Positions 4,116-41,400 of a stretch of 53,906 nucleotides of DNA are shown in pieces; the stretch's first letter is position 1; every line of letters starts with the position of its first letter. The notes below the pieces were generated by a model, which saw nothing but the letters and a program-made list of their open reading frames with translations, ran no database searches and was not told the DNA's origin. The stretch is from positions 1 through 53,906 of the forward strand of contig NZ_AOJG01000001.1 in the NCBI RefSeq assembly GCF_000337375.1. The letters run 5' to 3'. Origin of the DNA: Halorubrum lipolyticum DSM 21995 (GTDB lineage Archaea > Halobacteriota > Halobacteria > Halobacteriales > Haloferacaceae). The translations under genes were made by a program, and so were the position numbers.

Positions 4116-4355
4116 ATGATCGCGCTCATCGACGTCGTCTCCCGTCTCGTCGGAGACGTGGGACGATTCGTGGACCTGTTCCTGAACGACCTGATCCTCG
4201 GCGCCGGCGACCCGATCTCGGCGCTCCTCGTGGTCATCGGTCAGGTGCTGCTCGTCGGCGCGCTGGCCGCGTTCGGCTACGCGGCGATCGGGGCGCTCCT
4301 CCAGGAGATCGGCGTGACGCTCCCCTCGCTCGGCGGTCGCGGCCCGGCGGAATAG
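4116..4355 (+). CDS. Small membrane protein, function unknown
   Basis: This 79-residue protein has one strong hydrophobic segment (about residues 35-63) after an amphipathic N-terminus. I do not recognise a family. It is divergent from the site-2 protease and convergent with the transducer gene. Its last codons and stop (CCG GCG GAA TAG) are the first unit of a six-copy 18-bp tandem repeat that runs into the intergenic space. Confidence 0.65.
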   Translation: MIALIDVVSRLVGDVGRFVDLFLNDLILGAGDPISALLVVIGQVLLVGALAAFGYAAIGALLQEIGVTLPSLGGRGPAE

Positions 4356-4450
4356 CGCAGCCCGGCGGAATAGCGCAGCCCGGCGGAATAGCGCAGCCCG
4401 GCGGAATAGCGCAGCCCGGCGGAATAGCGCAGCCCGGCAGAATAGCGCAG
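4343..4450 (+). repeat. 18-bp tandem repeat (6 units) that copies a gene's stop codon
   Basis: Six head-to-tail copies of CCCGGCGGAATAGCGCAG start at 4343, 4361, 4379, 4397, 4415 and 4433. Only the last has a substitution (CAGAAT). Unit 1 holds the final PAE codons and stop of the small membrane protein, so every unit carries an in-frame TAG. The array fills the space between convergent genes. Confidence 0.95.
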
Positions 4451-33441: not shown

Positions 33442-33515
33442 AGCCAGGGCAGGGATTTGAACCCCGGAAGTCTCGATTACAAGTCGAGTGCATGAACCGC
33501 CCATGCTCCCCTGGC
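33442..33515 (-). tRNA. tRNA-Thr (anticodon UGU)
   Basis: The 74-base sequence folds as a standard tRNA: acceptor GCCAGGG/CCCTGGC, D arm GCAT..ATGC, anticodon stem CTCGA/TCGAG with loop CTTGTAA, and T arm CGGGG-TTCAAAT-CCCTG. The anticodon TGT lies at 33479-33481 (as ACA on the plus strand). No intron is seen, and CCA is not encoded. Confidence 0.95.
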
Positions 33516-33601
33516 GCAGGCGGGCGTACTCGGCCCACCTATGAGTGCGTGTCGCTTTCCGCGAAGGTGACGGCGCGGCCGGTGACGGCGCGGTGCCGCG
33601 G

Positions 33602-34141
33602 TCAGCCCCTCCGGTCGTCGTCTCCGTCTTCACCTCCTCGGTCGTCGCCTCCCTCTCCGCCGGCCGCCGCCAGCGACTTCGTCAGCTCCACGCGGTGCGG
33701 CTCGTACCCCTGTGCCGCGTAGAACTCGCGGGCGCGGTCGTTGGCCGCGAGCGCCTCCAGCGCGACGGTCTCAGCGCCCGTCTCGCGGAGCGCTCGCTCG
33801 GCCCCGTCGAGCAGATCGGCGCCGATTCCCTCGTCGCGGCGCTCGGGGACGACGAACAGGTTGCTCACGACGCCGCGGGTCCGATCGCGCTCGTAGCCGC
33901 CGCGATCGAGCGTGAACCCGACGAACCCGATCGGGTCGTCGTCGCCGTCGCGCGCGACGAGGAGCTCGCCGGTGACCACCGAGCGCGCGACCCACTCGCG
34001 GACCGCGGCGCGGTTCCCCTCGGCGAGCAGCGCCGACCCGTACGCCCGCTGGCCCTCGGCGAGCGCGACCCACAGGTCGGTCACCGGGTCGACGTCGTCG
34101 ACGGTGGCGGGCGTGACGCGCACGCGGTCGCTGTCGGCCAT
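33602..34141 (-). CDS. GNAT family N-acetyltransferase
   Basis: The 179-residue protein has VSNLFVVPERRDEGIGADLLDGAE (about 90-113, the acetyl-CoA loop with R-x-x-G-I-G) and ANDRAREFYAAQGYEPHRVEL (about 132-152). It resembles RimI-like acetyltransferases; the target is unknown. The tail is an acidic, glycine-rich run (GGEDGDDDRRG). Confidence 0.9.
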   Translation of the reverse strand: MADSDRVRVTPATVDDVDPVTDLWVALAEGQRAYGSALLAEGNRAAVREWVARSVVTGELLVARDGDDDPIGFVGFTLDRGGYERDRTRGVVSNLFVVPERRDEGIGADLLDGAERALRETGAETVALEALAANDRAREFYAAQGYEPHRVELTKSLAAAGGEGGDDRGGEDGDDDRRG

Positions 34142-38151: not shown

Positions 38152-39147
38152 ATGCGCGCGGACGAACTCGACCCCGAGATGGCCGCCGTCGTCGACGAGA
38201 TCGCGGCGCTCGGTCTCCCGGAGTGGAACGCCCTCTCCGTCGACGCCGCGAGGCGCGTCGAGGACGAGGTGTTCTCCGGCGAGCCCGAACCCCCCGTCGC
38301 CGACGTTCGCGACCTCGCGTTCGACGGCCCCCACGGCGAGGTGCCGGTGCGGGTGTACCGACCGGAAGCGGCGGTCGACGCGGCGGGCGATGCCGTCGGC
38401 GGCGACGGCAGAGGCGACGCCACCGACGCGGCCGGCGCCCGCATCCTCGTCCACTTCCACGGCGGCGGGTGGACGCTCGGAACCCTCGACTCTATCGACG
38501 GCCCGTGCCGGGAGCTCGCGACCCGCGCGGACGCCGTCGTTGTCTCCGTCGACTACCGGCTCGCGCCCGAGCACCCCTTCCCCGTGGCGGTCGACGAGGC
38601 GGCCGCGGCCGTCGCGTGGGTCGCGGACAACGCGGCGGCGTTCGGCGGCGACTCCGACCGACTCGGCGTCTCGGGCACCAGCGCGGGCGGAACGCTCGCG
38701 CTCGCGGCGAGTCTGTATCAGCGGGAACTCGAGGGCGACCCCGTCGAGATCGGCGGCCAGTTCCTCTGCTACCCGGTCGCGGGCGACGACTTCGAGACCG
38801 ACTCCTACCGCGAGAACGCCGACGGCCCGCTGCTCACCCGCGCCGACATGCGGTGGTTCTTCGAGCGGTACCTCCGGAGCCCGGTCGACGCGCGCAACCC
38901 CTTCGCGGTGCCGCTGCGCGCAGACGACCTCGGCGACCTCCCGCCGGCGACGGTCGTCACCGCGGGCTTCGACCCCCTGAGAGACGACGGCGTGGCGCTC
39001 GCGGAGGGGTTCGACCGCGACGGGACCCCGGTCGAGCACCGTCACTATCCCGCGATGGCGCACGGGTTCTGTAGCCTTGCCGACCGCGTCGGCACCGCGG
39101 AGGCGGCGCTGTCGGCGGTCGCGGGCGACGTGCGGGAGCGGCTGTAG
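38152..39147 (+). CDS. Alpha/beta hydrolase (HSL-like esterase)
   Basis: The 331-residue esterase belongs to the hormone-sensitive-lipase family: oxyanion motif HFHGGGWTLG (about 100-109), SVDYRLAPEHPFP (about 128-140), nucleophile GTSAGG (Ser about 173), Asp in FDPLRDDG (about 275) and His in MAHGF (about 305). It splits short-chain esters. It shares its TATA box with the divergent helicase gene. Confidence 0.9.
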   Translation: MRADELDPEMAAVVDEIAALGLPEWNALSVDAARRVEDEVFSGEPEPPVADVRDLAFDGPHGEVPVRVYRPEAAVDAAGDAVGGDGRGDATDAAGARILVHFHGGGWTLGTLDSIDGPCRELATRADAVVVSVDYRLAPEHPFPVAVDEAAAAVAWVADNAAAFGGDSDRLGVSGTSAGGTLALAASLYQRELEGDPVEIGGQFLCYPVAGDDFETDSYRENADGPLLTRADMRWFFERYLRSPVDARNPFAVPLRADDLGDLPPATVVTAGFDPLRDDGVALAEGFDRDGTPVEHRHYPAMAHGFCSLADRVGTAEAALSAVAGDVRERL

Positions 39148-39216
39148 CGTCCTGCGGGGAGAAGCCTCTCGAGCCGCTGCCGACGACCCCAAGTGTCTCG
39201 CCCCTGAACGAGGGGT

Positions 39217-39588
39217 ATGAGCCTCATCGGATCGGCGGTCACGTTCGCGGTCGGTCTGCTCGTCGGCGGGCTGGCCATCTTCATCGCCGCCGCGGTCGTC
39301 ACCGGCACGCGCGACTACGGCCACGCCGTGTTCACGGCGCTCGTCGGCGCGATCGTCTGGGGGCTCACCGCCTTCTTCCTCTCGTGGGTCCCGCTGATCG
39401 GCGACTTCCTCCCGCTTCTCGCGTGGGTCTGGGTCATTCGGGCGCGCTACGGGGCCTCGTGGGTCCACGCGGGGGTCATCGGGTTCATCGCCTGGGCGTC
39501 TGCGGTGCTGGTCCTAGCGGTGCTCCCGTTCGCGGGGGTCACCGACGCGGTCGGGGTGCCCTTCGTCCGGTCGCTCGGAGGGGTCTGA
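39217..39588 (+). CDS. Small membrane protein, function unknown
   Basis: The 123-residue protein has about four hydrophobic segments (about 5-30, 38-60, 62-78, 85-108). No family is recognised. It lies upstream of the phosphate permease on the same strand, but with its own gap of about 55 bases. Confidence 0.7.
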   Translation: MSLIGSAVTFAVGLLVGGLAIFIAAAVVTGTRDYGHAVFTALVGAIVWGLTAFFLSWVPLIGDFLPLLAWVWVIRARYGASWVHAGVIGFIAWASAVLVLAVLPFAGVTDAVGVPFVRSLGGV

Positions 39589-39613
39589 TCGGTCTCGTCC
39601 GGGACGGGGAACG

Positions 39614-39619
39614 TTTAAT
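39614..39619 (+). promoter_or_regulatory. TATA box upstream of the 10-codon ORF and PiT permease
   Basis: TTTAAT is centred 28.5 bases before the ATG at 39645 and about 57 bases before the permease GTG at 39674. The predicted transcript would begin right at the small ORF, so the permease would not be leaderless. Confidence 0.55.
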
Positions 39620-39644
39620 CAACGTCTCTGTCGAAGTGGGTGAC

Positions 39645-39677
39645 ATGGCTCGAACTCCCGTTCGCGGAGGCCGGTGA
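39645..39677 (+). CDS. Candidate 10-residue leader peptide (MARTPVRGGR)
   Basis: The ORF codes for ten residues, three of them arginine. It starts at the expected transcript start and ends in GTGA, where its TGA overlaps the permease's GTG. Translation of the permease may therefore depend on this ORF. It could also be chance; a comparative check would decide. Confidence 0.4.
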   Translation: MARTPVRGGR

Positions 39678-40885
39678 GCGTGGCCGGAGCCGTCTTCTGG
39701 GCGCTCGTCGTGCTGGCGACGCTCACCAGCCTCGCCACGGCGTGGACGCTCGGCGCGAACAGCAACTCGCCGCCGTTCGCCCCCGCGATCGGTGCCAACG
39801 CCATCTCGACGATGCGGGCGGCCTTCCTCATCGGTATCCTCGCCGCGCTCGGGGCGCTCACCCAGGGCGGCGCGATCTCCGAGACCGTCGGAGCGGGGCT
39901 CATCGACGGCGTCCAGATAACGTCGCTGGCGGCGACGGCGGGGCTGTTGACCGCGACCGGGTTCATGGCCTTCGGCGTCTACACCGGCTATCCGGTGCCG
40001 GCGGCGTTCGCGACGACGGGGGCGATGGTCGGCGTCGGGCTCTCCCTCGGCGGCGACCCGGCCGTCGACACCTACCGCCGGATCGTGCTCTTCTGGCTGC
40101 TCGTTCCCCCGGTCTCGGGCGGGCTCGCGTACCTCACCGCCACCGTCCTGCGACGCGACGACATCCCGGAGACGGTCGGCGTCCCGCTGCTCGCGGCGGT
40201 CGTCGGCGGCATCATCGCCAACGTCCAACTGGGCATCATCCCCTCGCCGCCCGACGCGGCCCAGAGTTCCGTCGCGGGGTTCATCGCGCGACGGGTCGCG
40301 ACACCGACGGTCGCCGGTATCGACCCCGTGGCGGTGCTCGTGACGCTGGCAGCCGCCGCGGCGTGGTTCGTCGCCATTCGCCGACGGACGCAGGCGTCGG
40401 TCGAGGGGGGGATCCGGACGTTCCTCATCGTCCTCGGGAGCGTCGTCGCCTTCTCCGGCGGCGGCAGTCAGGTCGGGCTGGCGACCGGCCCGCTGGAGAA
40501 CCTCTACGGGACCGAGCTCGGCCTGCCGAGCATCGTCCTGCTTGCGCTCGGCGCGGTCGGCATCCTCGCCGGCGCGTGGATGGGTGCGCCGAAACTGCTC
40601 CAAGCGACCTCCCGCGAGTACGCGCAGCTGGGGGTCAGACGCTCCATCGCCGCGCTGGTCCCCGGGTTCATCATCGCGCAGCTGGCCATCGCGCTCGGGA
40701 TCCCCATCTCGTTCAACAACATCATCATCTCCGGCGTCATCGGCGGGGGGCTCGCCGGGGGGTCTGCGGGCGTCTCTCGGCGGAAGATCGGGGTCACGCT
40801 CGTGTTTTGGCTCATCACGCTCGTCGCCTCGATCGGAATCGGATTCGGGCTCTACCGGGTCTTCGCCGCGGTGCTCGGTGGGTGA
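39674..40885 (+). CDS. PiT-family inorganic phosphate transporter
   Basis: The 403-residue permease has about ten membrane segments and the two duplicated PiT motifs: NSPPFAPAIGANAISTMRAA near the N-terminus and SFNNIIISGVIGGGLAGG near the C-terminus, both of the GANDxxN-derived kind. It imports phosphate, usually with a cation. The start is GTG, chosen because it overlaps the small ORF's stop. It is convergent with a UspA gene. Confidence 0.87.
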   Translation: MSVAGAVFWALVVLATLTSLATAWTLGANSNSPPFAPAIGANAISTMRAAFLIGILAALGALTQGGAISETVGAGLIDGVQITSLAATAGLLTATGFMAFGVYTGYPVPAAFATTGAMVGVGLSLGGDPAVDTYRRIVLFWLLVPPVSGGLAYLTATVLRRDDIPETVGVPLLAAVVGGIIANVQLGIIPSPPDAAQSSVAGFIARRVATPTVAGIDPVAVLVTLAAAAAWFVAIRRRTQASVEGGIRTFLIVLGSVVAFSGGGSQVGLATGPLENLYGTELGLPSIVLLALGAVGILAGAWMGAPKLLQATSREYAQLGVRRSIAALVPGFIIAQLAIALGIPISFNNIIISGVIGGGLAGGSAGVSRRKIGVTLVFWLITLVASIGIGFGLYRVFAAVLGG

Positions 40886-40916
40886 GGCGAGACGGGGCGA
40901 GTTAAAAAACGACAGA

Positions 40917-41348
40917 TCAGCGGACGACGGTGACGGTCACGGGGGCCTCGCCGACGACGGTCGTCGCCACGGTTCCGAGCAGTCGCCGGGCCAGGTCCCG
41001 CCCCTCACCGCCGTGCCCGCCCATCACGACGTGGTCGACGTCGTGGGCGTCGACGTACCCGAGGATGGCCTCGGCCGGGTCGCCGGTCTCGACCGCCGTT
41101 TCGATCGGGCGGTCGACCTCGGCCGCCCGCGTCTTCGCTCGTTCGACGACGCGGTCGGCGCGGTCGCGGGCGGCCTCGAGACGCTCCTCGCCGGGCTCGA
41201 GCAGGCCTCCTTCGCTCATCGCCGCGTCGATCGGAGTCACGACGTTCAGCACGGTGATCCGACAGTCGAAGAGCTCGAGCGCCCGTGTGAGCGCCTCGTC
41301 CGCTAGGGGCGATCCGTCGAGCGGGACGAGGACGTGCGATGGCGCCAT
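40917..41348 (-). CDS. Universal stress protein (UspA family)
   Basis: The 143-residue protein has HVLVPLDGSPLADEALTRAL at the N-terminus and the ATP-binding signature HVVMGGHGGEGRDLARRLLGTVATTVVGEAPVTVTVVR at the C-terminus, with the G-2x-G-9x-G(T/S) pattern intact. It should bind ATP and act in stress response. The ATG at 41348 is the family's usual start. It lies next to another UspA gene on the same strand. Confidence 0.92.
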   Translation of the reverse strand: MAPSHVLVPLDGSPLADEALTRALELFDCRITVLNVVTPIDAAMSEGGLLEPGEERLEAARDRADRVVERAKTRAAEVDRPIETAVETGDPAEAILGYVDAHDVDHVVMGGHGGEGRDLARRLLGTVATTVVGEAPVTVTVVR

Positions 41349-41400
41349 ACGCCGTGTTGAACCCCCACACACAAATCGACAGTGATCATCGACCGCGGAC

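Follow-up and report, generated by a model that had tools for sequence, protein, structure and literature searches.

The window analyzed here is a stretch of 53,906 nucleotides (nt) from Halorubrum lipolyticum DSM 21995 (contig NZ_AOJG01000001.1), whose nearest named relatives, with 93-94% identity, belong to Halorubrum. It contains a gene for a PHO4/PiT-family permease that is preceded by an open reading frame (ORF) of only ten codons, the mini-ORF. We present here the architecture of this locus, its conservation among haloarchaea, and a proposed role for the mini-ORF in delivering ribosomes to the permease gene. The features of the locus, with the Shine-Dalgarno sequence abbreviated SD, are as follows.

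39614..39619, plus strand: TATA-like box TTTAAT, part of a predicted promoter (from the sequence and its spacing to the ATG)
39645..39677, plus strand: mini-ORF MARTPVRGGR, 10 codons, predicted to be leaderless (from frame and shuffle controls and conserved start and stop columns)
39645-39647, plus strand: ATG start codon of the mini-ORF (from the sequence)
39666..39670, plus strand: SD-like GGAGG within the mini-ORF, ending 9 nt upstream of GTG 39680 (from the sequence and conserved G columns)
39675..39677, plus strand: TGA stop codon of the mini-ORF, 2 nt upstream of the probable permease start (from the sequence)
39680..40885, plus strand: PHO4/PiT-family permease, probable start GTG 39680, alternative GTG 39674 (from PF01384 and start codons in relatives)

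The permease belongs to the PHO4/PiT family by its match to PF01384 (E value, 7.1e-44; 150.6 bits against a cutoff of 33.7). Its nearest solved structure is PDB 6l85, named as a phosphate transporter (E value, 1.1e-15), and its only NCBIfam match is to the CysP sulfate permease, at 54.5 bits against a cutoff of 400. Phosphate is a likely, though not proven, substrate.

Rereading the sequence gave exactly the box, ATG, peptide, and TGA coordinates of the initial annotation, and the center of the box lies 28.5 nt upstream of the mini-ORF ATG, as given there. Measured from TTTAW, the distance is 31 nt to this ATG and 66 nt to the permease start. A survey of the window and loci L001-L080, which counted only ATG codons 15-60 nt past TTTAW, found that 30 of 51 ATGs opening long ORFs rich in GC at third codon positions (GC3) sit 28-31 nt past the motif, with a peak at 30. 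Because the mini-ORF ATG falls within this peak and the permease start lies at 66 nt, we read the mini-ORF as a putative leaderless first cistron; by box spacing alone, its ATG would be at a promoter-determined 5′ end of the kind described in mycobacteria. The pairing of GGAGG with 16S rRNA is assumed from the established haloarchaeal anti-SD sequence, since a search of the window's genome did not recover the 3′ end of the 16S rRNA. A 97-codon ORF that starts at 39384 and reads through the mini-ORF was not taken as a gene because its GC3 (0.53) is unlike that of the permease (0.93). A sigma-70-style promoter and terminator scan of 39000-41000, of a type unsuited to archaea, returned nothing.

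The relatives were drawn from 80 of 106 relatives found at first and from a further search that matched 195 of 392 genomes, part of which were taken (automatic loci and 80 further places). The resulting set comprised 204 loci and the window; L136 and L204 lacked a start codon where one was expected, and the remaining 203 reduced to 157 distinct orthologous upstream regions. These were classed as having a mini-ORF (80 regions), an upstream gene only (8 regions), a directly leaderless permease (5 regions), or neither (64 regions), with the mini-ORF class requiring by definition a stop within −10..+9 of the permease start.

The architecture exceeds chance. A pattern consisting of a TATA-like 7-mer, a start codon 26-34 nt on, and a stop within −10..+9 of the permease start occurred in 66 of the 157 regions, against a mean of 7.0 and a maximum of 14 in 100 shuffles of the leaders; with ATG starts only, 62 were observed against a mean of 3.4 and a maximum of 7. 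A second test was blind to the stop. TTTAW with an ATG 28-32 nt on was present in 51 of the 157 regions, and the frame of that ATG stopped within the same interval in 51/51, compared with 0/51 and 3/51 for the shifted frames. A broader box gave 67/67 for the true frame and 1/67 and 3/67 for the shifted ones. The presence of a small ORF in relatives, which the initial annotation had proposed as a check, is thereby established.

Conservation was examined by column in 34 regions with the same layout as the window. The mini-ORF starts with ATG in 33 and GTG in 1 and stops with TGA in 30, TAA in 3, and TAG in 1. The T at −64, the second T of the box, is invariant (34/34), and the SD columns −14, −13, −11, and −10 are G in 31, 32, 34, and 29 regions, respectively. 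Conserved islands are limited to the box, start, SD, stop, and permease start; interior codon positions 1, 2, and 3 are about equally variable (entropies of 1.06, 1.13, and 1.41).

The same alignment bears on the permease start, which the initial annotation had placed at a GTG overlapped by the mini-ORF TGA. That overlap with GTG 39674 is real, but the codon is probably not the start in use. Its equivalents are CTG 14 times, GTG 9, TTG 6, GTA 3, ATG 1, and CTA 1, so the position is CTG, GTA, or CTA in 18/34 regions, whereas the codon at 39680 is GTG in 32 and ATG in 2, a start codon in 34/34. Across all 157 regions, the position of 39674 holds ATG or GTG in 19 and TTG in a further 6. That of 39680 holds ATG or GTG in 113, and many of the remaining regions use a start codon neighboring it. 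These counts favor GTG 39680 over GTG 39674 as the probable permease start, and the GTGA at 39674 is not a conserved overlap. Because the start is probably at 39680, the junction would read TGA-GC-GTG, with a gap of 2 nt and no overlap. The stop thus lies at +2 nt, within the coupling distance of termination-reinitiation pairs.

Outside this layout, the architecture is kept as the dimensions change. The 80 classed mini-ORFs range from 5 to 40 codons, with 10 codons in 36 and a few of the longest being weaker assignments. Stop-to-start distances are +2 in 37, −4 in 19, +1 in 7, and other values in 17; box-to-ATG spacing is 29-31 nt in 66/80; and the stops are TGA in 69, TAG in 6, and TAA in 5. 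The position of the ATG tracks the box and has no fixed distance from the permease (−35, −62, −82, and others). The peptides differ in length and sequence between groups. In the Halosimplex clade (support, 99; named by its members), seven regions carry mini-ORFs of 10, 10, 10, 24, 31, 37, and 38 codons, all open and all ending at the permease, and Haloarcula species have a 21-codon mini-ORF with a GTGA junction. The pattern suggests selection on start, frame, stop position, and SD, with the architecture kept and the peptide not. A frameshift that would extend the permease at its N terminus was rejected, as the frame of the mini-ORF relative to the permease varies by group.

We consider it probable that the mini-ORF is a leaderless ribosome loader that passes ribosomes to the permease by termination-reinitiation. 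The permease mRNA would begin at or beside ATG 39645, leaderless for its ten-codon first cistron. Ribosomes would load at the 5′-terminal ATG, read the mini-ORF, and terminate at TGA 39675; the SD-like GGAGG just read would hold them for a second start, 2 nt downstream at GTG 39680, from which the permease would be made. The peptide would not be the selected product; the start, frame, stop position, and SD would be. The transcript start, mini-ORF translation, and reinitiation are what we infer from the promoter-like box, its spacing, the conserved start, frame, and stop, and the replacement of the mini-ORF by an abutting gene in other genera. The start codons of the permease fit a reinitiating ribosome, though numbers are small: GTG is used in 68/80 mini-ORF regions and ATG in 5/5 directly leaderless regions.

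Published work on coupling is consistent with such a loader. In Haloferax volcanii, all gene pairs tested (9/9) are reported to need translation of the first gene for that of the second, whose SD supported no de novo start; without the SD, coupling was about 20-80% lower in 6/7 pairs and higher in one (PMC6728339). Coupling efficiency is reported to fall by 40-60% at 13-14 nt and to near zero at 22-23 nt, and coupling in Escherichia coli needed no more of the upstream gene than its final 15 nt (PMC10666635). The SD of one monocistronic 5′ untranslated region (5′ UTR) in Haloferax was described as unused (PMC3986360). Together, these reports imply that a leaderless mini-ORF that carries an SD and ends 2 nt before a start would be a sufficient ribosome loader. 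The earlier suggestion that permease translation needs ribosomes fresh from the mini-ORF is supported in part: it fits the geometry of stop and start, the conservation of that geometry, and the strict coupling in Haloferax.

Several points weigh against this proposal. The 157 regions share ancestry, so their counts are not independent events and are inflated by kinship. By the criteria used, about half of the regions have no mini-ORF, and coupling is not obligatory for the permease family, since 64/157 fell outside all three classes of the classifier (mini-ORF, abutting gene, and leaderless start) and 5 regions are directly leaderless. An SD of at least 4 nt is present in 62/80 mini-ORF regions and 39/64 regions with neither feature, little difference between the classes. 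In L066, which its differing box left outside the stop-blind selection, a run of G breaks the mini-ORF frame. Finally, Haloferax is reported to be able to initiate on a 5′ UTR without using an SD (PMC3986360), so the mini-ORF might be dispensable for translation from the 35-nt leader.

Among the rival readings, the one that survives best, although improbable in our judgment, is a brake: ribosomes caught at the 5′-terminal ATG would mostly leave at the stop, keeping the permease low and possibly reinitiation dependent. The anatomy would be the same as that of a loader, stops at +1 to +7 rather than −4 are common, and reinitiation is never fully efficient. Against this, the SD-like sequence and the placement of the stop seem adjusted to favor restart, and where a genus lacks the mini-ORF, ribosomes would be supplied by a gene abutting the permease. 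The sequence does not decide between a loader, whose removal would lower permease output, and a brake, whose removal would raise it; our preference for the loader rests on the SD and on the genes that abut the permease in other genera, both of which point to a supply of ribosomes.

It is very unlikely that the locus is a conserved DNA or RNA element that merely contains an ATG and a TGA and is not translated. The neighboring haloarchaeal rpa leader offers a precedent: its block is conserved at the nucleotide level, and the ATG of some genomes is ACG in others. In the permease leaders, the nucleotides vary while start and stop remain codons, and the ATG follows the box rather than lying at a fixed distance from the permease.

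We give slightly less credence still to a sensing leader peptide or attenuator, in which the nascent peptide or a codon run would stall ribosomes on a signal such as phosphate. The initial annotation had proposed a control for phosphate uptake, and the mini-ORF does sit ahead of a transporter. No support for such control was found in the sequence: the peptides vary between groups in length and sequence, ten leaders folded no better than their shuffles (z, −1.31 to +1.18), an Rfam search had no match, and 39000-41000 held no terminator-like site. Neither the conserved peptide or codon run nor the conditional RNA structure of an attenuator is thus seen, and an RNA structure or riboswitch was dropped as a candidate on the folding and Rfam results.

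Chance with shared ancestry, meaning an ATG that happens to fall where the transcript begins, with a stop nearby, is strongly disfavored; many loci are closely related, but the shuffle and frame tests argue against it, as do lengths and frames that differ between parts of the tree, with at least five forced label changes.

The 43 named mini-ORF loci spread over 14 named genera. The tree of 104 full-length rows, built by a quick method and with many open forks, has a starred group of 82 rows that contains 56 of the 58 mini-ORF rows; within it, a group of 42 (support, 85) contains 40 mini-ORF rows, the other two being L123 and L120. Changes of the mini-ORF label are those forced by the starred branches, and the label for upstream-gene rows is loose (the upstream gene of L100 ends 10 nt away). 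The same mini-ORF was seen by eye in L123. By eye, at least 8 of the 64 regions classed as neither do hold a mini-ORF (L043, L063, L076, L163, L179, L124, L131, and L123), behind boxes, such as TTTTGA, that the classifier did not accept. In L120, the end of an upstream gene, 60 nt upstream of the permease, appears by eye to be joined through GTGA to a 17-codon ORF whose stop falls 1 nt short of the permease; the gap between the two genes would be spanned by a mini-ORF.

In some genera, the sequences indicate that an abutting upstream gene takes the place of the mini-ORF. A longer gene ends at −4 or −7 of the permease in ten loci, with translations that are alike, and a Pfam scan of one such gene identified the Usp family. 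In the window, a Usp-family gene closely follows the permease in convergent orientation (minus strand, 40917-41351), whereas the Usp-family gene of other genera abuts the permease from upstream.

A two-ORF relay of the Haloarchaeobius type is present in 4/5 distinct regions of that genus group, reading 14 codons, GTGA, 8 or 30 codons, ATGA, and permease. In L041, L044, L148, and L170, all four from the class with neither feature, it follows a TACTTAC/TTACTTC box and takes up the 64-130 nt immediately upstream of the permease. The relay is only suggestive because leader shuffles that keep the permease ATGA in place reproduce it in 15-21% of cases per locus and because L158 of the same genus group lacks it. 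Among the regions without a classed mini-ORF, a stop lies near the permease start in 59/77, against a mean of 16.3 and a maximum of 32 for comparison intervals; this enrichment is partly due to Thr as the second residue, which creates RTGA.

Scanning 479,579 bases (L001-L080) and the window for the same architecture recovered the permease in 31/80 loci and the window. Beyond the permease, four genes accounted for six rows, and the window held one weak case; three of the six rows are one Haloarcula gene with a suspected wrong-frame start. The window case, at 33503-33763 and probably weak, has a box lying 27 nt ahead of its ATG and reads 13 codons (MLPWRRRAYSAHL) to a TGA followed directly by the GTG of a 219-codon ORF (GC3, 0.80). 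At L048:4272-4295, the seven-codon MVYFDNE forms an ATGA junction with a 381-amino-acid (aa) gene related to methionine synthase models, below their cutoffs. On the minus strand of L072, at about 4320-4370 in reverse-complement coordinates, a 16-codon ORF with AGGAGGTCGATC near its end has a TAA directly followed by the ATG of a 329-codon ORF.

The window's genome was searched with three TTTAW geometries, which gave 75, 4, and 8 matches against 28, 1, and 2 for backward-pattern controls. For the first geometry, 71 matches were parsed (4 nested ones were dropped) and 7 were in frame: the permease, a plausible case before a 49-aa CxxC protein, and five before short or weak ORFs. The lists for the second and third geometries, read by eye, held the permease as the only in-frame case. 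At G000:C18:117150-117196 (L253), the five-codon MSDRR has an ATGA junction with the 49-aa CxxC protein, which has a weak DUF7837 match and relatives in 6/52 genus genomes, its own included.

The rpa leader (L269-L298 and L074) carries a conserved block, GTCTCCC ... GAAAAC ... GCGGAGAC, about 75 nt upstream, and a hairpin including the SD is possible. The gene behind the L074 leader is replication factor A (NF005553). The ACG form of the upstream start is that of the Halorubrum loci; in some genera, the leader holds a 13-codon ORF starting MSP, also a putative leaderless mini-ORF, with an ATGA junction to rpa. Mini-ORFs were called in 15/31 rpa loci (30 loci and L074), where many rpa starts are set one codon late, making distances 3 too large. 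With its conserved nucleotide block, the rpa leader is a contrast to the permease, and perhaps a second example in some genera.

A wider proposal, which we advance tentatively and with less than even confidence, is that sequence-free mini-cistrons without leaders serve haloarchaea as dedicated points of ribosome entry. The permease start would be competent only for just-terminated ribosomes, and lineages would swap a mini-ORF, a chain of two mini-ORFs, or a full upstream gene to keep this dependence. If so, some haloarchaeal SD genes that appear to be leadered would be hidden second cistrons. Most haloarchaeal transcripts are leaderless and the SD is reported not to drive de novo starts in 5′ UTRs, yet SD-like motifs are common upstream of starts; a leaderless mini-cistron with an internal SD would explain how such starts are fed. 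The loader model is testable through frame, stop, and SD in a genetically tractable group. It also carries a warning that very short 5′ cistrons escape annotation and upstream ORF searches restricted to long 5′ UTRs.

In the literature searched on leaderless, upstream ORF, coupling, haloarchaeal, and phosphate topics, judged from listings and selected passages, a haloarchaeal permease mini-ORF was not met. The components are already known; the proposed dedicated, sequence-free, and widely kept use of them would be new. Bacterial leader-peptide attenuators likewise place a short ORF ahead of a transport or biosynthesis gene; unlike them, the permease leader shows no conserved peptide, codon run, hairpin, or terminator. 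The upstream ORFs of H. volcanii are also small ORFs on the transcript of the gene that follows, described as 15-31 aa and sought only in 5′ UTRs of 150-250 nt (PMC4983044), limits under which a 10-codon ORF in a 35-nt leader would escape the search. The termination-reinitiation pairs of H. volcanii (Huber et al. 2019, 2023; PMC6728339, PMC10666635) are closer, with a stop beside a start and an SD in the upstream frame, in a haloarchaeon. Both partners there are reported as ordinary genes, whereas the upstream partner of the permease is a mini-ORF without a conserved peptide, and the sufficiency of 15 nt comes from E. coli, not Haloferax. The nearest likeness is to the leaderless small ORFs of mycobacteria, described as coupled to the next gene, with placement kept while the peptide diverges and ribosome delivery proposed (Shell et al. 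2015, PMC4633059), a possible function also named in a review (PMC12548453). As in those, the permease mini-ORF stops at the next start, with placement kept and peptide diverged, though with a +2 gap in the window and not RTGA. The mycobacterial account concerns bacteria, emphasizes the RTGA overlap, and compares two species; the permease mini-ORF belongs to Halobacteria, mostly has the +2 gap, and is found in 14 named genera before one gene family, at lengths of 5-40 codons.
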